Source: Alistipes sp. (lineage in GTDB: Bacteria > Bacteroidota > Bacteroidia > Bacteroidales > Rikenellaceae). From it: 64,000 bases of DNA. Positions 23,545 through 36,606 of the stretch are shown here, piece by piece. The stretch is taken from assembly GCA_017621455.1 (NCBI GenBank), contig JAGATC010000020.1:248001-312000 (forward strand). The letters are read 5' to 3'. Below the pieces are notes generated by a model that saw only the letters and a program-made list of their open reading frames with translations, was not told the origin of the DNA and did not search any database. Position 1 is the stretch's first letter, and every line of letters begins with the position of its first letter. The translations under genes and the position numbers were made by a program.

Positions 23545-25851
23545 ATGAAAACTAACTCTTTACAGCTGTTTGCCATCGCTATGGCAGCACTCGTTGCGTT
23601 GGTAGGTTGCCAGAAAGACCCCGATACGCCAAGCGCCACTATCGAAATCTACGCGGAGAGCCTCGAGGCTAAGCCCGAGGGCGAGGAGCTGCGCTTCAAC
23701 TACTCGATTATAGATGCCGTAGAGGGTGTGGCACTCTCTGTGGAGTGCGATGCTGAGTGGGTGTCGAACATCCGCTCTACGGATAACTTCGTGCTCTTCG
23801 ATGTCGCCAAGAACGACACGGGCGCGGAGCGCGAGACGACGCTCAAGCTGACTTATGGCGCAGTGCATAAGTCGTTGACGGTTAAGCAGAAGCCCTTTAT
23901 GGAGCCTCTGTCGCTGAAGGTTGAGTCGGTGGATGCTACCTCGGTGACCATTGCTGTAGTGACACTCGACGAGGAGACCACCTGGATTGGTCAGATTGTG
24001 GGTCGCGAGTGGTTCGAGGCTTTCGACGAGGAGCAGATTTTCAGCGAGGACTATGCCTACTACTTGAATATGGCCCAGGAGGCAGAGGTGTCGTTGGAGG
24101 AGTATCTCTCGAAAATCTTGAGCCGTGGCTCACACTCGGGTATTCGTATGTCGGGCCTCGACGTAGAGTCGGAGTATGTGGTATATATATATGGTATGAA
24201 CACCTCGGGCGAAAAGACCACATCTATCTACTACGAGGCGTTCACCACGACGCCAGCGTATGAGGGCAACGACGTCACCTTCGACTTCGACATCAGCGTC
24301 AATCGCTCTATCGCATCTATCACCGTTACCCCCTCGCACGAGGGCGTGGCCTACTACCACAACCTCACCACACGCGAGCACTTCGAGGCCTGCGGTGGCG
24401 ACATCGAGGCCCTGGCAAAGGATGTTGTGGCAACGGCACTCGACAACTACCTGTATTGGGAGTATACCGAGGCTGAGTTCTTCGAGTATAACTCATACTA
24501 TCTCACTGATTTCTACGACTTTGAGGGTATTGCCGATACCGAGTATGTGGCATTCGCATTTAAGTGGGACGAGCGTTTAGAGCCCCTTAGCGAGGTATCC
24601 TTCGAGTGGTTCAAAATAGATAGCATTCCCCCCTCGGAGAACGAGCTGGCGATGACCATCAGCAAAATCACGCAGACGACGTTCGACATCGCTGTCACCA
24701 CCACCAACGACGACCCCTACACCATCTTTGCTGTGCCCAGCAGAGAGCTTGCTAAGCTGAATACCGATGGCGCGATATTCGACTACCTTATGGATACTTA
24801 TGGCACATCGCAGTTGAGCCTTAACGTCTGCAATGGCCCTGTCGAGGGTACATTCAGCGGCCTGGAGCAGGATACCGATTATGAGGTGTTACTCTTTGGC
24901 TATGAGGCGGGTACGCTCACCACGTCGATGGTGCGCAAGAAGATACATACGGCTGTTGCGGGCGATGTGGAGGCGTGCCAATATACCGTGGAGGTTACCG
25001 AGATTGGCGACCGCGAGGCTTACATCTCTATCACCCCCTCGGACTACAGCGTATGGTACTACTGGAACGTCTTCGAGGCCTCGACCACCGAGGAGCAGAT
25101 TAAGGCATCTATCACAGAGGTCTACAACTCATACTACTACGCCGACTACTGGGAGTTTAGCTACTATGAGATTACGCAGGGCACCTCGAGCAGCTACGTC
25201 TCGCAGCTCTACCCCTCGACCGACTACAAGGTGGTTATCGTGCCTATGAATCCCGACGAGTTTGAGTACACGGGCACGCTGCGTACCGTAGGCGAGTTCA
25301 CCACCCAGGAGGCTGTCATTGCCGACATCACCATCACCGCGGGCTTCGATGCCTACTACGATGGCGACGAGGTCTCGGCGCTCGAACCCGATTACTTGAG
25401 CAACTATCATGGCTACGCTATCTTGCCCATGAGCGTAAGCATCGAGGGCGACTATTCGCGCTTTCTCTACACCATCTTCAACTATGTTGAGGGCTTGGAG
25501 AATCCCGCTATTTACAGCGATGATGTGCTTCTCGACACGCTCTACGAGGTGGGTGCCTACTGGACTCCAGCCTACTTCCGCGGCGAGTGGGAGAAGGATT
25601 TAATGATTGCTGCCGTGGCCTTCGACATGGAGGGTAACCCCTCGGCGGTGTACCGCGAGAAGATATACCTCACTCGCGAGGGTGCTGCCGATGCGCAGGA
25701 GTTTGTCGACTACTATATGGGCAGCATCAGCTCGGTAAAGAGCGCTGGTGCCAAGCCAATGACGTATGTCGCTACGAGCGATGCTCCCGAGCTTAAGATG
25801 ATGACCAAGCAGGAGTGTCGTGAGCGTGGCATTCGTTTGACCAAGAGATAG
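23545..25851 (+). CDS. BACON-domain lipoprotein with repeated beta-sandwich modules
   Basis: Surface or periplasmic lipoprotein of 768 residues. The signal peptide ends at LVGC (C22). A BACON-like domain covers about 35-115 (VALSVECDAEWVSNI, KSLTVKQ). At least three FN3-like modules of about 110-130 residues follow, each with the boundary pattern (T)DYxVxxFG/VPMN...FTT, for example LEQDTDYEVLLFGYEAGT and YPSTDYKVVIVPMN. Aromatic-rich helices (YNSYYYADYWEFSYYE) sit within modules. No catalytic motif was seen. BACON domains often act as spacers in glycan- or mucin-related surface proteins, so a binding role is a reasonable guess. Confidence 0.75.
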   Translation: MKTNSLQLFAIAMAALVALVGCQKDPDTPSATIEIYAESLEAKPEGEELRFNYSIIDAVEGVALSVECDAEWVSNIRSTDNFVLFDVAKNDTGAERETTLKLTYGAVHKSLTVKQKPFMEPLSLKVESVDATSVTIAVVTLDEETTWIGQIVGREWFEAFDEEQIFSEDYAYYLNMAQEAEVSLEEYLSKILSRGSHSGIRMSGLDVESEYVVYIYGMNTSGEKTTSIYYEAFTTTPAYEGNDVTFDFDISVNRSIASITVTPSHEGVAYYHNLTTREHFEACGGDIEALAKDVVATALDNYLYWEYTEAEFFEYNSYYLTDFYDFEGIADTEYVAFAFKWDERLEPLSEVSFEWFKIDSIPPSENELAMTISKITQTTFDIAVTTTNDDPYTIFAVPSRELAKLNTDGAIFDYLMDTYGTSQLSLNVCNGPVEGTFSGLEQDTDYEVLLFGYEAGTLTTSMVRKKIHTAVAGDVEACQYTVEVTEIGDREAYISITPSDYSVWYYWNVFEASTTEEQIKASITEVYNSYYYADYWEFSYYEITQGTSSSYVSQLYPSTDYKVVIVPMNPDEFEYTGTLRTVGEFTTQEAVIADITITAGFDAYYDGDEVSALEPDYLSNYHGYAILPMSVSIEGDYSRFLYTIFNYVEGLENPAIYSDDVLLDTLYEVGAYWTPAYFRGEWEKDLMIAAVAFDMEGNPSAVYREKIYLTREGAADAQEFVDYYMGSISSVKSAGAKPMTYVATSDAPELKMMTKQECRERGIRLTKR

Positions 25852-25880: not shown

Positions 25881-25912
25881 GGGGGGGGTGTCCGTGGGGG
25901 CATCCCCCTTTC
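25881..25912 (+). terminator. Terminator after the BACON lipoprotein gene
   Basis: A run of G (GGGGGTGTCC) pairs with GGGCATCCCCC around a short loop, then TTT. Confidence 0.6.
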
Positions 25913-25968: not shown

Positions 25969-25976
25969 TATCTTTG
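25969..25976 (+). promoter_or_regulatory. -7 promoter box of the fimbrillin-like gene
   Basis: TATCTTTG matches the consensus, 37 bases upstream of ATG 26014. Confidence 0.6.
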
Positions 25977-26013: not shown

Positions 26014-27783
26014 ATGAAGATTGTTAAGAAGATAGCGGCGTTGGTTGTGTGTGGTTTTGCACTTACGGCGTGTGTCAGCGAGTTTGGTGAGAGTCCTGTG
26101 AAGCCTGTGGAGAGCGGGGAGGTAGGTTTTGAGTTGTGTGGCGAGGCTACGCGCACCTCTATCGACCCCGATGGTGTAACCACACGATGGGCAGAGGGCG
26201 ATAGGATGGCTGTATGGGCAGAGGATGCGGCAGGTAACTACACACTCGAGAATACGACGTTTAGATTCCACCACTACTCCGATGAGTTCGACCACGGCTA
26301 CTTTGTCGCTAACATCGCCTCAATGGCCGAGGGCGACTACACCTATATGTTAGCATACCCCACACCCCAGTCGGTGAGCGGTACGCAGGCCACCTTTAGC
26401 GTTCCAGCTACGCAGTCGGGAGCCTACGATGGCAAGTACGACATTATGATTGCCGAGCCCGCTGTGGCCGAGGCGTTGAGTGCAAAACGTAAGGTGGAGA
26501 TTAACACCGTTATGCGCCACCAGATGCACGCCGTGAAGATTACCGTGCCCGAGGGTCGCAACCTCTACGGCACGCGCTTCTATCGCTTGGAGATAACCTT
26601 CCCCAACCCCGTTGTTGGCGACATCACCCTCGACATCACCAACCCCGATGCCGAGCCCGTCTACTCAAATATGTCGAATGTCGTGGTGCTCGAGAGCGCC
26701 GAGGGCTTCGATGCTGGCAGCGTGCTCTGGGCCTTTGTGCTTCCAGGTACGGTAGATGGCGATGTGTCGTACCGTGTAAAGGGTGAGCGCCGCCACTCAA
26801 ATGTGGCAACATACTCGCTCTCGAAGCAGATGCAGAAGGGCCGCGTTACGCCCATCAATATGGCAATCCCTACAATATATCCCTACTATTCGGCTGCTAT
26901 TATCACCGTTGAGCAGAACAACCTTGGCGAGGAGTATAACACCGTTAGGATATACGATGCGAATGGTGGTCTTATGGGTGAGTATCCCCGCAACGACAAT
27001 GGCGTCTATATTGTTGATTATGAGGGTGAGTTTGACTGCGACCAGTATGATAACACCTCGTGGAGAGTAGAGTTTGACTCGGAGCACGCTATCGTGTCGT
27101 CGTATGTTGCAATGGGTGATATGACCGACTACACATCGCACAACTATACCACCGATGTGCCATACCTCTTCTACGAGGACTTCAGCGCACTTGCAACGTT
27201 TGATGGCGACTATACCGGTGGTCCATATACATCAACGAGTAATGCCTCGATAGATGGTCGCGACCTATCGCAGTATGGTATCGCTGCGGGTTGGACTGGC
27301 GCACGTACAGGATGCGATGCTGCGGGTACTGCAATTTTAGTGAGTGGTCGAACAGACTATGTTATTGCAGGTGCTACACGTGCCTATGGTCGATTGGAAT
27401 CTCCTGCATTGTCGGCAATCAAGCCAGATAAGGATGTTAAGGTGAAGGTTACGTTCGACTATGGCGGTAGTCGCTCAGGTGGTAGCTGGGCTTATGCCGT
27501 TGCGAAAGTTGGTTATACGACGACTCAGGGCATTCTCAATGGTTATGCTACACAGTTTAACAACAACGCAGCATTCTCGGGTATTGATGGAGCTATTGAT
27601 GTGCCAGATATCCCCACCTCGGGCTCTGCTTCGGCTCTTACGTTGTCGATGTCATATAATATTGATGTTTGTACGTCGTTGCACCGTCTATCTTGGCATA
27701 TTGGTAGCTTGGGTACTACTTTTATCGGCAATGGTTATCAGTGGATGTACATTGACAATATCAAAGTACAGATAGTCCAGTAA
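26014..27783 (+). CDS. Fimbrillin-like lipoprotein with C-terminal jelly-roll-like domain
   Basis: Secreted lipoprotein of 589 residues. The lipobox is LTAC (C20). Shortly after comes EATRTSID, then VTTRWAEGDRMAVWA, the opening typical of Mfa-like fimbrillin family proteins. The fimbrillin-like part runs to about residue 285. From about 375 a different domain begins (YLFYEDFSAL...), Gly/Ser-rich and ending WMYIDNIKVQIV, which resembles the C-terminal jelly-roll of choice-of-anchor or carbohydrate-binding modules. The gene stands alone behind its own promoter. It could be a fimbrial tip or an adhesin; not certain. Confidence 0.7.
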   Translation: MKIVKKIAALVVCGFALTACVSEFGESPVKPVESGEVGFELCGEATRTSIDPDGVTTRWAEGDRMAVWAEDAAGNYTLENTTFRFHHYSDEFDHGYFVANIASMAEGDYTYMLAYPTPQSVSGTQATFSVPATQSGAYDGKYDIMIAEPAVAEALSAKRKVEINTVMRHQMHAVKITVPEGRNLYGTRFYRLEITFPNPVVGDITLDITNPDAEPVYSNMSNVVVLESAEGFDAGSVLWAFVLPGTVDGDVSYRVKGERRHSNVATYSLSKQMQKGRVTPINMAIPTIYPYYSAAIITVEQNNLGEEYNTVRIYDANGGLMGEYPRNDNGVYIVDYEGEFDCDQYDNTSWRVEFDSEHAIVSSYVAMGDMTDYTSHNYTTDVPYLFYEDFSALATFDGDYTGGPYTSTSNASIDGRDLSQYGIAAGWTGARTGCDAAGTAILVSGRTDYVIAGATRAYGRLESPALSAIKPDKDVKVKVTFDYGGSRSGGSWAYAVAKVGYTTTQGILNGYATQFNNNAAFSGIDGAIDVPDIPTSGSASALTLSMSYNIDVCTSLHRLSWHIGSLGTTFIGNGYQWMYIDNIKVQIVQ

Positions 27784-27867: not shown

Positions 27868-28638
27868 ATGAGAAAGTTTTTTACAATCGCTTCGCTCGTT
27901 GCGTTGACGCTTTCGGCTTGTTCGAAGGAGTCTACCCAGGGCAGCGAGAAGGGTGAAGGACAGGTGAGCATCAGCTGCGTTGTAGCAACAGATGTTGATG
28001 AGACCCGTGCCAATGTTGACTGCACCACCCCCGCAGTTGAGGATTTCTCTCTCAAGATCGAGGGTGTAGGTCACACCTATGCAGAGGAGTATGCTACCGT
28101 GGCAGAGTTCAACGATGCCGAGGTGTATATGAAGAGTGCCAGCTACAAGGCTACCGTTAAGTCGGGTGACGTTAACTCCGAGGGCTACGATAAGGCAGCC
28201 TTTGAGGGTAGCGCAGAGTTTGTTGTAGAGCCTCGCAAGCATACCAATGTGGAGATTACTGCAACCATAGCTAATGCCTTGGTTAAGGTTGAGGTTACTG
28301 ACCAGTTCAATGCCTACTTTGTTGGTGGCCACGAGCTTAAGGTGGTTACAGCTGCAGGCAACGAGTTTGACGTAACTGCGCAGACCGAGCCATTGTTTAT
28401 AGCTCCTGGCGCGTTTACCATCTCGGGTACCGCCGTTAAGCAGCCCAACCAGTCGGGTGCTGATGGCACTGTTGTGGCCTTGCCCGAGTATAAGAATACC
28501 GATGCTAAGGCGCAGACGCTCTACACCGTTAAGCTCGATGTTGTGAATGCGGGTAGCGCTCAGCTTACTATCACCCTTAACGAGGAGCTTGTTGAGTCGA
28601 TAGATATTGAGCAGGAACTTAACGATAACGCTAAATAA
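27868..28638 (+). CDS. DUF4493-like lipoprotein, first gene of surface cluster
   Basis: Lipoprotein of 256 residues with lipobox LSAC (C18). The mature part begins with a polar linker and then ISCVVATDVDETRANVDC, FSLKIEGVGHTY and FVVEPRKHTNVEITATIANALVKVEVTDQF. This is the pattern I associate with DUF4493 domains of Bacteroidales. Single domain, no enzymatic motif. It starts a six-gene plus-strand series with gaps of about 5-28 bases, probably one operon. Location is likely the outer membrane surface. Confidence 0.7.
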   Translation: MRKFFTIASLVALTLSACSKESTQGSEKGEGQVSISCVVATDVDETRANVDCTTPAVEDFSLKIEGVGHTYAEEYATVAEFNDAEVYMKSASYKATVKSGDVNSEGYDKAAFEGSAEFVVEPRKHTNVEITATIANALVKVEVTDQFNAYFVGGHELKVVTAAGNEFDVTAQTEPLFIAPGAFTISGTAVKQPNQSGADGTVVALPEYKNTDAKAQTLYTVKLDVVNAGSAQLTITLNEELVESIDIEQELNDNAK

Positions 28639-28652
28639 TAGGAGAAAAAGAT

Positions 28653-30305
28653 ATGAAATCAGTAGTAAAAATGATGGGTGTTGCCTTTGCTGCGCTACTT
28701 ACACTTGGAGCATGTAGCAAGGATAAGGTCAACTATGTAGATGGCCCAGATTCTTCAAAGGATAATATCGGCTACTTGCTCGTAGGTGGCATGGAGGCCT
28801 CTATTTTGGAGGATACCGAGAATGTTGAGAACTCATCGGCGACACGTGCCGGAGAGGTTGATATTAACACGTTTGATGTTGTTATCACCAACAAGGATGG
28901 CCAGGAGATGGCGTCGTTTAAGTATGGTGAGCGTCCTTCGGAGCCTATCGAGTTGGTAGGTGGTGTCTATAAGATTACAATGTCGTCGGCTCAGATGCAA
29001 GGAGCACAGTGGGAGGCTCCTGTATATGGTGGCGAGAAGGAGGTTGTAGTCACTCGCAAGCAGACCACCGAGGTTAGAGACCTCGTATGTAAGCTCGCTA
29101 ACATCAAGGTTACTGTGGGCTATTCTGCCGACCTTGCCGAGCAGCTCGACCAGGAGTACACCAAGATGACCGTGGAGTTGGATGGCGCCTTGGAGTATGC
29201 CTTCTCGGAGACACGTGCTGGTTACTTTGCTCCAGTGGCTGCGGAGAATACGCTAAAGTTGACTTTCAACTGCCGCTATAAGGGTGAGACTAAGGATATT
29301 ACCATGACTAACGAGATTAAGGGCGTTAAGGCTGCGCAGTGGCGTAAGATTAACGTTGTTGTTCAGCATGCTGCTGATGGTACTGCTTCTATCGGTATCG
29401 TTTGCGACACATGGACCTACGACGAGGAGATTACGTTCGACACATCGGTCTCGCTTATGGAGGAGATTATCCCCGATGATAGCGACGCTCCTGTAATCGT
29501 TTGGGAGGGTCACGACCTTAATGAGGCCTTCGAGCTTACTGACGATATGTTCGACGCTGATGGTAACTTCACATCAAGCATCAACCTCGACGTTACAGCC
29601 AAGGCGGCTATTAAGTCGTTGGTTGTTAAGGTGTCGTCGGACAATGCCGATTTCACCACAGCCTACTCTGAGATTATGGCCTTGGAGGAGGACTTGTGCG
29701 CACCCACAGCCTCTAACACCATCCTCAAGATGATGGGTTACCCTGTTGATGCTAAGGATGCCACCACTACACGCCTTAAGTTCGCTTCGCAGGCTGAGTT
29801 GCTCAAGTCGTACGAGGGTACTCACTCTTACGAGATTACCGTAACCGATGTTAACGGTGCTCACACAACAGCAACGCTCACCGTCAAGTATGGCCAGAAT
29901 GTTGCACCACAGATTATCTGGGTTGGTTACAACATCGACGAGCGTCAGACAATTACCTCGGATACCACTTGTAAGATTCGCGTAGTAGCACCTTTGGCTA
30001 TTAAGGACTTCGAGATTGAGATTAAGTCTAACACTCTTACTCCCGAGGAGTTGGCAGGTGTAGGTCTTGCATCAGAGTTCAGCCTTGTGACCTCTACCGA
30101 TATGCACGAGTCACTCGCGGGTCTTGGTTTCCCCGTAGGCGACGATGTATATGGTCAGACTCTCATTGCGGAGGATAAGCTCGATATTACAAGCTTCCTC
30201 AGCATCTTGAGTATGCTTGGCTCGGGCGATCACGACTTCGTGATGACTGTAACCGATATGGAGGGCAACGTTACAACCAAGACTGTGATGATGCACTTCG
30301 AGTAG
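28653..30305 (+). CDS. DUF4493-like lipoprotein with added beta domains
   Basis: Lipoprotein of 550 residues with lipobox LGAC. Residues about 35-265 look like the same DUF4493-type domain as the preceding gene (SATRAGEVDINTFDVVI, TEVRDLVCKLANIKVTVGYS). After this come two similar modules of about 130 residues, each opening with an APVIVWEGHDL / APQIIWVGYNI-type strand and ending in a VTD...T strand. They are tandem immunoglobulin-like repeats. Function unknown; part of the six-gene cluster. Confidence 0.7.
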   Translation: MKSVVKMMGVAFAALLTLGACSKDKVNYVDGPDSSKDNIGYLLVGGMEASILEDTENVENSSATRAGEVDINTFDVVITNKDGQEMASFKYGERPSEPIELVGGVYKITMSSAQMQGAQWEAPVYGGEKEVVVTRKQTTEVRDLVCKLANIKVTVGYSADLAEQLDQEYTKMTVELDGALEYAFSETRAGYFAPVAAENTLKLTFNCRYKGETKDITMTNEIKGVKAAQWRKINVVVQHAADGTASIGIVCDTWTYDEEITFDTSVSLMEEIIPDDSDAPVIVWEGHDLNEAFELTDDMFDADGNFTSSINLDVTAKAAIKSLVVKVSSDNADFTTAYSEIMALEEDLCAPTASNTILKMMGYPVDAKDATTTRLKFASQAELLKSYEGTHSYEITVTDVNGAHTTATLTVKYGQNVAPQIIWVGYNIDERQTITSDTTCKIRVVAPLAIKDFEIEIKSNTLTPEELAGVGLASEFSLVTSTDMHESLAGLGFPVGDDVYGQTLIAEDKLDITSFLSILSMLGSGDHDFVMTVTDMEGNVTTKTVMMHFE

Positions 30306-30325
30306 CATAGTTAAACCCCAAGATT

Positions 30326-32383
30326 ATGTCTATTATGAAAAAGATATTAGCATTATTGAGCATGGTGCTCGTTGTGGCAGCCTGCTCTAAGGATACAGAA
30401 ACACGCGTTGAGGTTGCCACTGATGGTGGTGCTATGCGCCTGTCGGTTGCTGCTCAGGCAGATGTTATGGCCAACGATAGCGTGGTCGTCAAGATCTATA
30501 AAGTTGAGGGCGAGGAGGAGTCTTTGATTCGTCGCTATAGCTCTCTGAACGATGTTCCCGAGTACCTTGCGTTGCTCGCTGGTGACTATGTTGCGAAGGT
30601 GCAGGTTGGCGAGAAGCACGCCGTGTCGTACGACCAGAAGTACTACTATGGTGAGTCGGCATTTGAGGTTAAGGCTGGCGAGGTGGCTGCCGTAACCGTT
30701 GATTGCAAGCTTCACTCTACAATCGTTGCAGTAAACTACGACGCAACCGTAGCCGAGAAGCTCTCTGAGGGCTACTTCACCACTGTTGCTATCGCTGAGT
30801 CTTACGATGCTGGTGCTATTGCTACTGGCGACGTGTTGTCGTTGACATTCGAGGAGTCAAAGGAGGGTTATGTTGTAATGCCCGAGGGTCAGACCTCGCT
30901 CTACTGGCACTTCGAGGGTACTCACCCCGTTGAGGGCGACATCGTTAAGGAGGGACTTATCGAGAACATCAAGTCGTCGGCACGCTATACCATCACTTTG
31001 AAGTACTCGGAGGATGCTCCTGGCAGCCTTGTATTCGAGGCTACGGTGGATGAGTCTATCGAGGAGTGTGATGATACCATCATCTTCTCTCCCGACCCAA
31101 CAATCCTTGGCGATGGCTTCGATATGAGCGAGGAGCAGCTCTCTACAACGGCCTCACGTGCCTACAACGTGGCTTCGTTGGCTGCAATCAGCACTATGAC
31201 CATCACCATCGACGGCACAGAGTACGACCTTCTTACTAACGTTCCTGAGGGCATCACCGTAGATAAGAGCGACGACCTCAACTACAAGGTTACGGTTAAC
31301 GAGACCTTCTTCAACGCCGTATCTGGTGGCGACCATGCCCTCGTATTCTACGTCGAGGATGTCGATGGCGGTAAGGTCGAGAAGGAGGTAGCCTATAGCG
31401 TTCAGGGTGTTATGCCTTTGACCAATGCTGACTACGACCTATGGTTTGGTAACGTTACGTTCAAGGCTAACGTTATCAACACCGCAGCTACCTCTGTGAA
31501 GATTGCCTACTCGGCTGATGGCTCTACTTGGACCGAGGTTGATGCTGTGGCTGCTGCCGATGGCACTTATACCGCTACTGGTGCTGACTTCGCTGCCGAG
31601 AAGAACTACACATATAAGCTCGTCGTAGATAGCGTCGATGCAGGTAAGGCACTTACACACCAGACAGCCCCAGGTGCTCAGATTCCTAACGGCGATATGG
31701 AGTCGTGGTCTACATCGGGTGGTGTTGTCTACCCCTATGCTGCTGGCGCTTCACCTTTCTGGCTCACGGGTAACGATGGTGCAGCAATGGCAAATGCTAC
31801 GCTTACACAGTCATCTACTGATGTTCGCCCAGGCTCAACTGGTCAGTATTCGGCATACCTCAAGTCGCAGAAGGCTGCGGTGATGGGTATCGGTAAGTTC
31901 GCTGCGGGTAACCTCTTCGTAGGTACCTTCTCGATGAGCGGTCTTAATGGTACTGTTAACTTCGGTCGTGACTTCAACTTCACGGCTAAGCCCAAGAGCC
32001 TCTCGTTCTGGATGAAGCACAACGAGGGTACCATCAACGAGAACTCTGGTGAGCCAGCATCGGGTCTCGATATGTGTACCGCTAATGTCATCATCACCAA
32101 CTGGACAGAGCCCTACGCAGTAGATACATCAAATACCGACACATTCTTCACAATGGCAGACCTCGCTACTATGGAGGGTGTTATCGGCTATGGCTACTAC
32201 CAGACTACCTCGTCGAACACCGAGTGGACAGAGTATACGCTCGACATCACCTACCGCGAGGATATGAAGGATGCTAAGCCTACAAAGCTTGTGGTGTCGT
32301 TCACTCCTTCGGGCTATGGTGACTACTTCTGCGGCTCTACCGACTCGTGGATGTATGTCGACGACATTGTCTTCAACTATTAG
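30326..32383 (+). CDS. DUF4493-like plus PCMD-domain lipoprotein
   Basis: Lipoprotein of 685 residues; ATG 30335 is an equally good start. Lipobox VAAC. The N-terminal 230 residues are DUF4493-like, an Ig-like middle follows, and from about residue 450 the protein carries a PCMD-type domain: PNGDMESWST, YPYAAGASPFWLTGNDGAAMA, GIGKFAAGNLFVG, and ends CGSTDSWMYVDDIVFNY. The PCMD region is clearly paralogous to the last gene of this cluster. The name (putative carbohydrate metabolism domain) suggests glycan binding, which is unproven. A hairpin follows the stop codon. Confidence 0.72.
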   Translation: MSIMKKILALLSMVLVVAACSKDTETRVEVATDGGAMRLSVAAQADVMANDSVVVKIYKVEGEEESLIRRYSSLNDVPEYLALLAGDYVAKVQVGEKHAVSYDQKYYYGESAFEVKAGEVAAVTVDCKLHSTIVAVNYDATVAEKLSEGYFTTVAIAESYDAGAIATGDVLSLTFEESKEGYVVMPEGQTSLYWHFEGTHPVEGDIVKEGLIENIKSSARYTITLKYSEDAPGSLVFEATVDESIEECDDTIIFSPDPTILGDGFDMSEEQLSTTASRAYNVASLAAISTMTITIDGTEYDLLTNVPEGITVDKSDDLNYKVTVNETFFNAVSGGDHALVFYVEDVDGGKVEKEVAYSVQGVMPLTNADYDLWFGNVTFKANVINTAATSVKIAYSADGSTWTEVDAVAAADGTYTATGADFAAEKNYTYKLVVDSVDAGKALTHQTAPGAQIPNGDMESWSTSGGVVYPYAAGASPFWLTGNDGAAMANATLTQSSTDVRPGSTGQYSAYLKSQKAAVMGIGKFAAGNLFVGTFSMSGLNGTVNFGRDFNFTAKPKSLSFWMKHNEGTINENSGEPASGLDMCTANVIITNWTEPYAVDTSNTDTFFTMADLATMEGVIGYGYYQTTSSNTEWTEYTLDITYREDMKDAKPTKLVVSFTPSGYGDYFCGSTDSWMYVDDIVFNY

Positions 32384-32391
32384 TAACTAAC

Positions 32392-32424
32392 GAGATAGTG
32401 GTGACTGGTGGTTGCCACTATCTC
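32392..32424 (+). terminator. Hairpin within the DUF4493/PCMD operon
   Basis: Perfect 10-base arms GAGATAGTGG and CCACTATCTC, then CCTCCCTTTTATTT, just ahead of ATG 32439. Probably an attenuator or processing site that lowers expression of the downstream barrel genes. Confidence 0.55.
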
Positions 32425-32438
32425 CTCCCTTTTATTTA

Positions 32439-33248
32439 ATGAAGAGATTTTATATTACAATCCTTGCCATGCTCTCAGTAGTGGGCGTCATGGCGCAGGA
32501 TGCAGTGCTCCCCCAAGATGACAATATTGAGGTAGAGACCATCGAGACGCTTACGCCTAACGAGGCACGTAAGCAGCGAGGATTCTCTACGGATGAGAGT
32601 TTTGTGCCCAAAGGACAGTGGATTTTTGGCGGTACGGCGTCGTACTCGACACACACCAACAAGAACTATAAGCTGCTTGTTATCGACAACATCGATTCGG
32701 AGGGTTATACGGTCAAGGTAAGCCCTATGATTGCCTATGCTGTTAGCAAGAATATGGCTGTTGGTGTACGTTTCGGCTATGGTCGTTCGCTGCTCGCTAT
32801 GGATAACGCTTCGTTGTCGGTGGGCGAGACCAACATGGGTATCGACTACTTCCACAAGATTAAGCACACCTACACGGGTACCATCTTCTGGCGTCCCTAC
32901 ATCCCGCTGGGTCATAGCAACCGCTTCGCTATCTTTGCCGAGGTGCAGCTAAGCCTCTCGGGTGGTCAGTCGAAGGTTGTGGCCGAGAATGGTGTTGTGG
33001 ATGGCATGCAGAACTATACGGGTACCTACTCTAAGAACTTCGGTGCCTCGATAGCGTTGCAGCCAGGTATTGTGGCATTTGTTACCAACAACACCGCCCT
33101 GGAGCTCTCGATAGGTGTCTTTGGCATAGGTGTAGACCGTGTTAAGCAGCTTAAGAGTCAGGTTGAGGAGGGCAAGTTCATCTCATCTGATGCAAATTTC
33201 AAGCTGAACTTCCTGTCGGTAGGTTTCGGCGTATCGTTCTACTTATAA
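32439..33248 (+). CDS. Outer-membrane beta-barrel protein 1 of surface cluster
   Basis: Protein of 269 residues with a signal peptide cut after VMAQ. An N-terminal linker (TLTPNEARKQRGFSTDESFVPKGQW) precedes amphipathic strands (WIFGGTASYST, VSPMIAYAVSKNMAVGVRFGYG, NRFAIFAEVQLSLSG, FLSVGFGVSFYL). The terminal aromatic-hydrophobic strand is typical of proteins inserted by the Bam complex. Start ATG 32439 is used because the longer frame begins at TTG inside the hairpin. It could be a small porin-like export or anchoring barrel for the neighbouring lipoproteins. Confidence 0.75.
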   Translation: MKRFYITILAMLSVVGVMAQDAVLPQDDNIEVETIETLTPNEARKQRGFSTDESFVPKGQWIFGGTASYSTHTNKNYKLLVIDNIDSEGYTVKVSPMIAYAVSKNMAVGVRFGYGRSLLAMDNASLSVGETNMGIDYFHKIKHTYTGTIFWRPYIPLGHSNRFAIFAEVQLSLSGGQSKVVAENGVVDGMQNYTGTYSKNFGASIALQPGIVAFVTNNTALELSIGVFGIGVDRVKQLKSQVEEGKFISSDANFKLNFLSVGFGVSFYL

Positions 33249-33261
33249 ACCGCAGTAAACT

Positions 33262-34110
33262 ATGAAGAGACTAATACTACTTTTAGCTGCTGCGATGGTT
33301 TCAGTAGCAACGCTCTCGGCACAGGAGCTTTCCACTCAGACGGTAACAGCTCAGGCGACAAGCACAAGCGACGAGGTTAAGAAGACGAAGTTTTTGCCTA
33401 TGCGACAGCGTGTCGATCGTCATATCGACCGTAACAAGTTCGTCTATAAGGGAGAGGTGATGCTCGGTCTTACGGCGTCGTATGGTAACGTAAAGGCTGA
33501 GGATTCAGACCTTATGCTCCTGCTCAACGATATTGACGTAGGCCTGCGTAGCACCACGGTACGCCCATTCTTCGCTTATGCCTACCGCGATAACCGCGCT
33601 GTCGGCTTGCGCCTTGGCTACCAATATATAAATGGTAACCTCGGAAACATCGATGTCAACCTTGGCCTTATTGCTGAGGGTATCGAGGATATGAATCTGG
33701 GCAATATAGGTCTGCGTAACGAGACCTTCTCATGGTCTGTATTCCACCGTAATTACCTCGGTCTGGATCGCCGTGGCATCGTGGGTGTTATCCTCGAGAC
33801 GGAGCTCTTGATCAAGAGCGGCTCGACACGATTTATGTCGGGTGGCGATGATGTGAGTGCCTCGGTGAGTCGCAACTTTGCTGCACAGCTCAACGTAAAC
33901 CCCGGCCTCGGCGTATACATTATGCCGCAGGTATGTGTGACAGCTACGGTGGGCATCGGTGGCCTGAGATATAACAACATCCGCCAGTTGGACAACGTTA
34001 CGGGCGAGGTTATTGGTCGCCGCGACCACTCAAGCCTTAACTTTAAGATTAACATTGTCGACATACAGATTGGTATTGTGGCACATTTATGGAGTAACAA
34101 AAAGAAGTAG
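33262..34110 (+). CDS. Outer-membrane beta-barrel protein 2 of surface cluster
   Basis: Protein of 282 residues with a signal peptide ending LSAQ. It has the same architecture as the preceding barrel: a charged linker, the shared strand pattern (VMLGLTASYGNVKAED, VRPFFAYAYRDNRAVGLRLGYQY), and a final strand IQIGIVAHLWSNKKK. The two are diverged paralogues in tandem, 13 bases apart. Their presence between PCMD lipoproteins suggests that they act with them. Confidence 0.75.
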   Translation: MKRLILLLAAAMVSVATLSAQELSTQTVTAQATSTSDEVKKTKFLPMRQRVDRHIDRNKFVYKGEVMLGLTASYGNVKAEDSDLMLLLNDIDVGLRSTTVRPFFAYAYRDNRAVGLRLGYQYINGNLGNIDVNLGLIAEGIEDMNLGNIGLRNETFSWSVFHRNYLGLDRRGIVGVILETELLIKSGSTRFMSGGDDVSASVSRNFAAQLNVNPGLGVYIMPQVCVTATVGIGGLRYNNIRQLDNVTGEVIGRRDHSSLNFKINIVDIQIGIVAHLWSNKKK

Positions 34111-34115
34111 CAGCT

Positions 34116-35714
34116 ATGAATAGAGTATTTAAATCCATTGTTTTAGGTCTTGTTGCTGTTGCTTCGCTTGGTTGCATACGTAACGATATTCCCTATCCTA
34201 TCATTAAGCTCGACATCCTCACTCTTGAGGCTGAGGGCATGAAGTCGACGCCTAAGATTGATGCTACGAACCACACCGTGAAGTTGGAGCTGGAGGAGAC
34301 TACCGATATTCGCAATGTACATATCACTAACGTTGCGGTGACTGAGGGTGCTGAGTCGGATGTTCTGTTCCCTGGCTACTTCGACCTGCGTAAGCCTCTG
34401 TATGTCAACCTCTCGATGTATCAGACATTCGAGTGGACAATCACCGCAGAGCAGCATATCGAGTACTACTTCCGCGTTAATGGTCAGATTGGTGAGTCGG
34501 AGATTGACCCCATCGGACATGTGGCTACGGCCTATGTGCCTATGGATTTCGACCTATCTAACGTAGAGGTTGTTGCCGCAAAGTTCGGCCCCGCTGAGAT
34601 TACCAGCTACGACCCCGACCCTATGTCGTTTACCTCGTTCGAGGATACGGCACACAACGTCATTGTGACCTACCATGGCGACATCGAGGAGATGTGGACG
34701 CTACGCATCTTCAAGAAGGATGTAGAGGTGGAGTTCACGTCGGTAGATGCCTGGGCTAAGCGTATATGGCTCTATGCAAATGGCCGTAGTGGCGCCGACC
34801 TCGGCTTCAAGTATCGTAAGACGGGTGACCAGGAGTGGATCGACGTCGAGAACATCACTACCGAGGGTGGTAGCTTCTCGGCATACATAGATAACCTCGA
34901 CACCCTGACATCGTACGACGTTGTGGCATACTCTAACGATACCTTTACCGATGTTGTCACCGTAACCACGGAGGATACCTTCGCACTGCCTAATGGCGAC
35001 TTCGAGCGCTGGTCTACGATTAATAACATCGTCTACCCCTATGCCGAGAGCGATGCTCCATTCTGGGGTACGGGTAACGACGGTGCAGCTATGGCAAGCA
35101 CCACACTTACGGAGGCTACCGAGGAAGTGCGTCCTGGTAGCGAGGGTAAGCTCGCCGCAGCATTGCAGTCGAAGAAGGCTGCGCTGATGGGTATCGGTAA
35201 GTTTGCCGCAGGTAACCTCTTCCTCGGTGAGTTCGGCGGTCTTGTCGGCCTCGACGGCTTGGTTAACTTCGGTCGTCCCTCTACAGCACGCCCCGTGGCA
35301 TTGCACGGCTGGGTTAAGTACAATTGCGGCGTTATCGACGAGCTTGGCCGTGTGCCATCGTCGCGCCCCGACCTTAAGAAGGGTGACTACGATGAGGGTC
35401 AGATTCTCATCGCCGTAGGTAACTGGACAGCCGAGGAGTATGGCGGTAGTGCCGACTGCCCCGTGGTTGTCAATACCAAGGATGAGTCTACCTACTTCAA
35501 TAAGAACGGTAAGAATGTCATTGGCGCTGGCGAGATGATCCTTACGGAGTCTACCGATGGCTGGGTTGAGTTCACCCTGCCACTCGATTATGTCACTACC
35601 AGCGAGGTGCCTACGCACATGATTATTATATGCTCGGGCTCACGCTTTGGCGACTACTTCACAGGTTCGACACAGAGCCTTATGCTTGTCGACGACCTCG
35701 AACTCGTATATTAG
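34116..35714 (+). CDS. PCMD-domain lipoprotein, last gene of surface cluster
   Basis: Lipoprotein of 532 residues with lipobox SLGC. The N-terminal half holds two beta-sandwich modules. From about residue 290 comes a PCMD-type domain: PNGDFERWSTINN, YPYAESDAPFWGTGNDGAAMA, GIGKFAAGNLFLG, and the end STQSLMLVDDLELVY. This region matches the C-terminal domain of the gene at 30326 closely. It starts 5 bases after the second barrel gene. A strong terminator follows. Confidence 0.75.
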   Translation: MNRVFKSIVLGLVAVASLGCIRNDIPYPIIKLDILTLEAEGMKSTPKIDATNHTVKLELEETTDIRNVHITNVAVTEGAESDVLFPGYFDLRKPLYVNLSMYQTFEWTITAEQHIEYYFRVNGQIGESEIDPIGHVATAYVPMDFDLSNVEVVAAKFGPAEITSYDPDPMSFTSFEDTAHNVIVTYHGDIEEMWTLRIFKKDVEVEFTSVDAWAKRIWLYANGRSGADLGFKYRKTGDQEWIDVENITTEGGSFSAYIDNLDTLTSYDVVAYSNDTFTDVVTVTTEDTFALPNGDFERWSTINNIVYPYAESDAPFWGTGNDGAAMASTTLTEATEEVRPGSEGKLAAALQSKKAALMGIGKFAAGNLFLGEFGGLVGLDGLVNFGRPSTARPVALHGWVKYNCGVIDELGRVPSSRPDLKKGDYDEGQILIAVGNWTAEEYGGSADCPVVVNTKDESTYFNKNGKNVIGAGEMILTESTDGWVEFTLPLDYVTTSEVPTHMIIICSGSRFGDYFTGSTQSLMLVDDLELVY

Positions 35715-35742
35715 GCGAGCAAACAAAATAACTGAATAGGGT

Positions 35743-35771
35743 AGTGGGAGAGGCCGATGGCTTCTCCCACT
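35743..35771 (+). terminator. Terminator of the DUF4493/PCMD operon
   Basis: Perfect arms AGTGGGAGA and TCTCCCACT, extended inward by GCC/GGC around a GAT loop, followed by a T-containing tail. Confidence 0.7.
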
Positions 35772-35840
35772 TCTCGGTTTAGAGGTGTGAGTTTCTAAAT
35801 TTATTTATGAATGTGCTTTGATAAATCCGTTTTAATTTCG

Positions 35841-35848
35841 TACCTTTG
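35841..35848 (+). promoter_or_regulatory. -7 promoter box of the NifU-like gene
   Basis: TACCTTTG matches the consensus and gives a leader of about 60 bases, A-rich before ATG 35914. Confidence 0.6.
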
Positions 35849-35913: not shown

Positions 35914-36606
35914 ATGATTTACTCACACGAAGTGCAGCAGATGTGCTGCGTGAAGAAGGGTGCTAACCACGAGTCTGCACCTATCCCCGAGGAGGGCAAA
36001 TGGGTACGTGCCAAGGAGATTAAGGATATCTCTGGTCTTACTCACGGTATTGGCTGGTGTGCACCTCAGCAGGGCGCTTGTAAGCTTACGCTCAACGTCA
36101 AGGACGGTATCATCGAGGAGGCATTGGTTGAGACTATCGGTTGCTCTGGTATGACTCACTCTGCAGCTATGGCATCGGAGATTCTTCCTGGCAAGACCAT
36201 CCTTGAGGCTTTGAACACCGACCTCGTATGTGACGCTATCAATACCGCTATGCGCGAGCTCTTCAAGCAGATTGTTTACGGTCGTACACAGTCAGCATTC
36301 TCTGAGGGTGGCCTCGTTATCGGTGCATCGCTCGAGGACCTTGGTAAGGGTCTCCGCTCACAGGTAGGTACCATGTTCGGTACTAACGCTAAGGGTACTC
36401 GCTACCTCGAGATGGCTGAGGGCTACTGCACACGCATGGCGCTCGACGCTAACGACGAGGTTATCGGCTACGAGTTCGTACACCTTGGCAAGATGATGGA
36501 CTTCATCAAGAAGGGCATCGAGCCCGCAGAGGCATTGGAGAAGGCAAAGGGCTCTTATGGCCGCTTCAAGGATGCTGTTAAGTATATCGATCCTCGTCAC
36601 GAGTAA
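35914..36606 (+). CDS. NifU-like iron-sulfur scaffold protein
   Basis: Cytoplasmic protein of 230 residues related to the IscU/NifU N-terminal scaffold fold. Candidate cluster-binding cysteines occur in QMCCVKK, IGWCAPQQGACKL and the family-typical TIGCSGMTHSAAMASE. It is longer than IscU because of a C-terminal helical extension (about 150-230). Codon use is that of a highly expressed gene. It pairs with the GGGtGRT gene 46 bases downstream, a pairing I know from other anaerobes. The client of this pair is unknown. Confidence 0.85.
   Translation: MIYSHEVQQMCCVKKGANHESAPIPEEGKWVRAKEIKDISGLTHGIGWCAPQQGACKLTLNVKDGIIEEALVETIGCSGMTHSAAMASEILPGKTILEALNTDLVCDAINTAMRELFKQIVYGRTQSAFSEGGLVIGASLEDLGKGLRSQVGTMFGTNAKGTRYLEMAEGYCTRMALDANDEVIGYEFVHLGKMMDFIKKGIEPAEALEKAKGSYGRFKDAVKYIDPRHE

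Follow-up and report, generated by a model that had tools for sequence, protein, structure and literature searches.

Described systems related to the locus

Type V fimbriae (FimA/FimB and Mfa1-5 of Porphyromonas and other Bacteroidia) are polymers of lipoprotein subunits. Mfa1 and FimA are matured by lipidation followed by Arg-gingipain cleavage (PMC5954841). The levan and dextran utilisomes of Bacteroides thetaiotaomicron join SusC and SusD to a glycoside hydrolase (GH) and a surface glycan-binding protein (SGBP). In the levan utilisome paper this protein, SGBP-lev, is named BT1761; it binds levan and docks on the lip of the SusC barrel. BT2081, a PCMD protein, and its paralogues sit in polysaccharide-utilisation loci (PMC2954218). 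Here we describe a locus, g0 to g6, that resembles each of these in part. It lies in a window of 64,000 nucleotides of Alistipes sp. (assembly GCA_017621455.1, contig JAGATC010000020.1, positions 248,001 to 312,000 of the forward strand) and is a seven-gene set of cell-surface proteins kept together by gut Bacteroidales. With middling confidence, we read it as encoding a single surface assembly that is anchored in the outer membrane, binds glycan and includes lipoproteins of fimbrillin fold.

With type V fimbriae the set shares lipoprotein subunits, the place of g0 in Mfa_like_1 and a predicted two-domain fimbrillin fold of its DUF4493 proteins. However, a Pfam scan of the operon detects no PF08842 (Mfa2-family) anchor, the genome's two such genes being on contig C9, and the unit adds two OmpA-like barrels and PCMD; moreover, type V fimbriae polymerise, whereas this locus is known here from its genes and predicted folds. 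The N-terminal region of g6 is related to the SGBP BT1761, but the same scan gives no SusC, SusD or GH, the barrels are predicted to have eight strands, and the head of g6 is PCMD, not DUF4960. Most of the aromatic pocket of BT2081 and its relatives (3hbz, 4jrl, 4het, 3s30) is retained in the PCMD domains, as is the position of the Asp351 calcium ligand; unlike those proteins, they lack Asp259, are fused to DUF4493 or SGBP-like parts and do not lie beside SusC. The predicted fold of g4 is that of the small OmpA/OprF/OmpW-type barrels, but its 269 amino acids (aa) end with the barrel, leaving no room for a peptidoglycan-binding domain, and the locus has two tandem copies with a conserved RGI-TFVPKGQW start before the barrel. 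The set thus belongs neither to type V fimbriae, having no PF08842, nor to SusCD utilisomes, having no SusC or SusD, although it may work like either. A literature search, most subscription papers lying outside it, found no description of the gene set and no paper on DUF4493 or PCMD under these family names.

Extent and conservation of the gene set

A sequence-only reading had placed three DUF4493 lipoproteins, two barrels and a PCMD lipoprotein in tandem at 27868-35714. All six open reading frames are present, and their domain matches exceed the Pfam gathering cut-offs (27 bits for PF14900 and PF13149, 28 bits for PF13201): g1 to g3 reach 108.8, 139.2 and 125.2 bits with PF14900, g3 and g6 reach 107.7 and 124.5 bits with PF13201. 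These DUF4493 matches (three) and PCMD matches (two) are the only ones in the genome. The operon, however, begins one gene earlier, with g0 (Table 1), 84 bases ahead of g1; no -7 promoter motif was found between the two, and one, TATCTTTG, lies in front of g0. The Bacteroidetes -7 consensus is TAnnTTTG. A single such motif is weak evidence, because 43 occur in the window against 25.7 expected. The start of g4 is most likely the ATG rather than a TTG within the preceding hairpin, where it had been put.

A scan of named genomes with an alignment of the barrel found loci in Bacteroides (for example B. finegoldii DSM 17565), Phocaeicola (for example P. plebeius DSM 17135), Parabacteroides, Barnesiella, Coprobacter, Muribaculaceae and others, and the best 80 of 222 confirmed loci were used for counts of gene order. 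Canonically, the genes run DUF4493 (about 840 aa, with a PCMD-like domain at its end; hhalign 99.8%), DUF4493 (about 425 aa), DUF4493 plus PCMD (about 715 aa), barrel A, barrel B and PCMD (about 530 aa). Among the 71 loci with at least 2.8 kb downstream, barrel A-barrel B-PCMD is found in 65 and barrel A-PCMD in 5, while at one (L119) no PCMD was called. Upstream of the barrel, at least three DUF4493 genes are present in 35, and one or two in 12, of the 65 loci with at least 6.3 kb on that side.

Entirely without a DUF4493 gene are 30 of the 80 barrel loci. DUF4493 is encoded elsewhere in 29 of these 30 genomes (22/23 plus 7/7), mostly as three genes per genome with canonical open frames, and in 13 of the 14 among the 23 that have at least 6.3 kb upstream. 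Not all of these loci are true splits, since some sit near contig ends. The DUF4493 module and the barrel module are co-retained even when unlinked, and the split falls between g3 and g4, the site of a hairpin in the window. Across 247 Bacteroidales genomes, DUF4493 occurs in 26, PCMD in 116 and the barrel in 21 at E <1e-20, a cut-off set once the list had been seen (17 more genomes have weaker barrel matches). Both DUF4493 and the barrel are present in 19, DUF4493 alone in 7 and the barrel alone in 2 (Fisher p about 1e-20, ignoring relatedness of the genomes). The conserved gene order, together with the retention of both halves in genomes where they lie apart, supports as an inference the earlier proposal of a multi-part surface system with the barrels as anchors. 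Its two stated risks, that the genes might not co-occur elsewhere or that the barrels might be unrelated to the lipoproteins, were checked and neither was borne out.

Table 1. Genes and candidate signals of the locus (window coordinates)
Feature	Position	Strand	Description
-7 promoter motif	25969..25976	+	Bacteroidetes-type, TATCTTTG; in front of g0
g0	26014..27783	+	fimbrillin-like lipoprotein; Mfa_like_1 N-terminal part, then a C-terminal domain of no assigned family
g1	27868..28638	+	DUF4493 lipoprotein, short form; PF14900 E 4.8e-31
g2	28653..30305	+	DUF4493 lipoprotein, C-terminal domain in two repeats; PF14900 E 2.4e-40
g3	30326..32383	+	lipoprotein: DUF4493, middle domains, PCMD; PF14900 E 4.7e-36, PF13201 E 1e-30
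g3/g4 hairpin	32392..32424	+	15 bp; dG -22 kcal/mol, z -5.6
g4	32439..33248	+	barrel A, predicted 8-stranded OmpA/OprF-type
g5	33262..34110	+	barrel B, paralogue of g4
g6	34116..35714	+	lipoprotein; C-x-x-N-D-I-P-Y-P start, SGBP(BT1761)-like N-terminal region, C-terminal PCMD; PF13201 E 7.2e-36
hairpin after g6	about 35743..35771	+	fold of 35715-35805, z -5.2; possible terminator

The DUF4493 lipoproteins and g0

An AlphaFold2 model of g1 from 74 sequences (predicted local distance difference test, pLDDT, 86.2) predicts that DUF4493 has the two-domain fold of the type V fimbrial proteins Mfa2, Mfa3 and FimA. The best 19 rows of a VIA-align search have Z from 9.5 to 7.7 over 170-204 residues (Mfa3 9.4, PG49 9.2, Mfa2 9.2, FimA1 7.9); 17 of them carry a fimbrial or cell-adhesion label and belong to Bacteroidales, and the others are P. 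gingivalis antigen PG49 and a DUF1812 protein. Values below 8 can be common in this search; the leading rows exceed 8 and cover most of the domain. The best Foldseek matches are putative adhesins of Bacteroides (7.5e-7). In g2, profile positions 284-418 match twice, which gives the two C-terminal repeats. A lipobox is present in 44/46 long g1, 38/39 g2, 33/38 g3 and 64/75 g6-class sequences, as judged by motif only, and is usually followed by D or E in positions +2 to +6; acidic residues behind the lipobox favour surface export in Bacteroidetes. The loop between the first two DUF4493 strands is rich in Arg and poor in Lys (69 R and 32 K in 1618 residues, versus 441 R and 860 K in 16065 elsewhere). 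Arg is found there in 57 of 74 sequences, but no column is invariant.

In a Pfam search of the own genome, g0 matches PF13149 (Mfa_like_1) with 37.6 bits at 26179-26868 (G000:C15:274179-274868). By hmmscan, the g0 protein of the window itself has no PF13149 match and 3 of 9 homologues do, the best at 9.6e-15. A g0 match is present in 34 of 101 genomes of the same family, and at least 21 of 30 genomes with g0 at E <=1e-29 have a DUF4493 gene on the same strand no more than about 500 bp downstream. Sequence comparison of g0 with the PDB, as a single sequence and as a profile, gave nothing convincing, and the 90% probability match to DUF4493 profiles is weak, the signal peptide being part of the roughly 110 columns that it spans. 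We considered that g0 might be the split-off C-terminal half of the 840-aa gene 1; comparison of its C-terminal domain with PCMD and with the C-terminus of that long form gave no profile match.

The barrels

That g4 and g5 are paralogues, as had been claimed, is confirmed by 26% identity over nearly their full length (E 2e-24). Neither has a Pfam match above cut-off. An AlphaFold2 model of g4 from 65 sequences (pLDDT 86.7) aligns with the OprF barrel 4rlc over 133 of 135 residues (VIA-align Z 13.7) and with OmpA (Z 13.6); by reading, the model has eight strands, some of them broken. On this model the two proteins are predicted to be 8-stranded OmpA/OprF-type barrels and hence suitable anchors. 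Such barrels form a class without a protein-conducting lumen. Being predicted as 8-stranded and OmpA-like, g4 and g5 would be too narrow to export lipoproteins, and the suggestion that they do so is given up on the predicted strand number.

g6 and the PCMD domains

The PCMD domains of g3 and g6 are 44% identical, so that their strong likeness, already seen in the sequence-only reading, holds. With a 13-sequence g6 profile, the PDB entries matched by PCMD are 4jrl (4e-31), 4het (9e-28), 3hbz (9e-28) and 3s30 (3e-27). The N-terminal 200 or so residues of the profile match a DUF4960 protein chain in 8a9y, 8aa0 and 8aa2 (E 5e-7), which we take to be levan utilisome structures, the chain presumably being BT1761. 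Directly after the lipid cysteine, g6 carries a conserved N-[DN]-[ILV]-P-Y-P (N23 and P26 each in 70/75 sequences, Y27 in 72/75, P28 in 73/75).

The BT2081 description lists the pocket residues and two proposed catalytic residues, Asp259 and Asp338 (PMC2954218). In 75 g6 sequences the pocket is largely kept: Asn149 in 75, Phe340 in 74, Phe202 as F or Y in 74 and Phe206 as Y or F in 74. The Asp351 calcium ligand position is kept in 68, and the Asp338 position is D in 74, but most sequences have I, Q or V at the Asp259 position. The loss of Asp259 led us to reject glycosidase activity as the main role. Extra PCMD genes lie beside the cluster at some loci (L163, L101, L103), which suggests interchangeable heads.

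Hairpins and genomic surroundings

The internal hairpin reported earlier is present between g3 and g4, with merely a weak T-rich stretch on its 3' side. A repeat element was considered, but the hairpin is single-copy in its genome. As for the final terminator, a hairpin does follow g6, but its role as a terminator is not established because it has no clear U-tract and is not listed by the terminator scan. A full Bacteroidetes-type promoter match (TTTG, spacer, TACCTTTG) at 35817-35848 precedes the gene at 35914, which is therefore probably on its own transcript. On the other side, a 768-aa BACON-domain lipoprotein gene (23545-25851) is probably a separate unit, a G-run/C-run hairpin at about 25881-25912 separating it from the operon.

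Polysaccharide genes are commoner around barrel-less DUF4493 loci than around controls; the signal beside the cluster itself is weaker. The 72 proteins around 11 barrel-less DUF4493 loci include GDP_Man_Dehyd (4), Epimerase (4), Poly_export (the Wza family, 3), Epimerase_2 (2) and UDPG_MGDP_dh (2), and among the 25 families listed for 115 control proteins, where single matches would not show, there is no polysaccharide family of that kind. Beside 26 cluster loci, 118 proteins give Glycos_transf_2 (4), Glycos_transf_1 (3) and Polysacc_synt_2 (3). No polysaccharide genes adjoin the cluster in the window, where the nearest neighbours look like housekeeping genes. This context hints at a glycan role and names no ligand. 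In two genomes (L088:5891-11061 and L091:5445-10021) a standalone DUF4493 lipoprotein adjoins a polysaccharide exporter of the Wza type and a small DUF3575 protein; this is a reduced arrangement of the same sort, set among polysaccharide genes. At 22 loci the cluster has a DUF4923 lipocalin-like protein as a neighbour, on one side or the other (e.g. L105:825-1442, minus strand). Apart from the DUF4493 operon, the own genome also carries a type V fimbrial region of the ordinary kind on contig C9 (8248-49456), which contains Mfa2 and many Mfa_like_1 genes.

Proposed function and alternatives

From the observed gene content, co-occurrence and synteny, and from the predicted folds of g1 and g4, we infer that the proteins could form one complex docked on the barrels, exposed at the surface and binding glycan. 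The small 8-stranded barrels g4 and g5 would be its platform in the outer membrane. On them g6 would dock through its conserved NDIPYP start and SGBP-like N-terminal domains, its PCMD head binding glycan. The proteins g0 and g1-g3, whose type V fimbrial fold is assigned or predicted, would be lipid-anchored at the surface and either pack on this platform or form pairs among themselves, displaying additional PCMD and Ig-like domains. The whole may act as an adhesin or glycan-retention device, neither transporter nor enzyme. The sequence-only reading had recognised the surface set; it had missed g0 and had seen neither that DUF4493 has a predicted fimbrillin fold nor that the N-terminus of g6 is SGBP-like.

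Several observations weigh against this assembly. No DUF4493 gene is nearby in 18 of the 65 loci with long upstream flanks, so that its linkage to the barrel is not obligatory; and 7 of the 26 DUF4493 genomes have no barrel, so that DUF4493 by itself does not mark the system. The models are of monomers only, the physical complex being putative. The BT1761 match is absent with the window g6 sequence alone and appears only with the 13-sequence profile. Finally, window g6 lacks two of the pocket aromatics (Ser at 389, Leu at 431), and its binding may therefore be altered or weakened. A wider proposal, which is tentative, is that the locus represents a surface organelle, widespread in gut Bacteroidales and so far undescribed, whose two 8-stranded barrels carry fimbrillin-fold lipoproteins and PCMD heads. 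Such an organelle would resemble a fimbria and be related to glycan utilisomes, but would adhere rather than import, and DUF4493 would add a new branch to the type V fimbrial superfamily.

An unlikely alternative is a short fibre like a type V pilus, in which DUF4493 and g0 are cleaved after a first-loop Arg and exchange strands, PCMD domains are tip adhesins, and the barrels and g6 form the base. The predicted fold of DUF4493, the PF13149 match of g0 and the lipoprotein nature of most of the proteins agree with this, as do the Arg enrichment and Lys depletion of the first loop, with Arg-gingipain maturation of Mfa1/FimA as a parallel (PMC5954841). Set against it are the lack of an invariant Arg column and of an Mfa2-family protein in the operon, and the separate, ordinary fimbrillin locus of the same genome. 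Moreover, in long g1 and g3 other domains come after DUF4493, so that neither shows an obvious C-terminal donor strand like that of FimA.

The polysaccharide context bears on another reading, that the device holds or organises the cell's own capsule or exopolysaccharide. It draws on the sugar families around barrel-less DUF4493 loci and their absence from the listed control families, on the two DUF3575-Wza loci and on the glycosyltransferase and Polysacc_synt_2 matches beside the cluster. Yet sugar-gene adjacency follows lineage and is often on the opposite strand, the window's own neighbours are of the housekeeping kind, and the control comparison is confined to its 25 families; we regard this reading as distinctly unlikely. 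That the locus is a reduced polysaccharide-utilisation unit, capturing dietary or host glycans for uptake, seems improbable: BT2081 and its paralogues do lie in such loci (PMC2954218), and the g6 N-terminus is related to an SGBP, but SusC, SusD and GH are missing from the operon and the Asp259 position is not conserved.

Significance

The analysis brings DUF4493 and PCMD, both families of 'unknown function', and two unnamed barrels into one testable system, which links type V fimbrial folds with utilisome-like docking. The genomes that keep both modules at different places are a natural test of how far each module depends on the other. The hosts belong to human and animal gut genera (among them Bacteroides, Phocaeicola, Parabacteroides, Barnesiella, Coprobacter). 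If the assembly is an adhesin, it would bear on how these commensals hold on to mucus, to food particles or to their own capsule.

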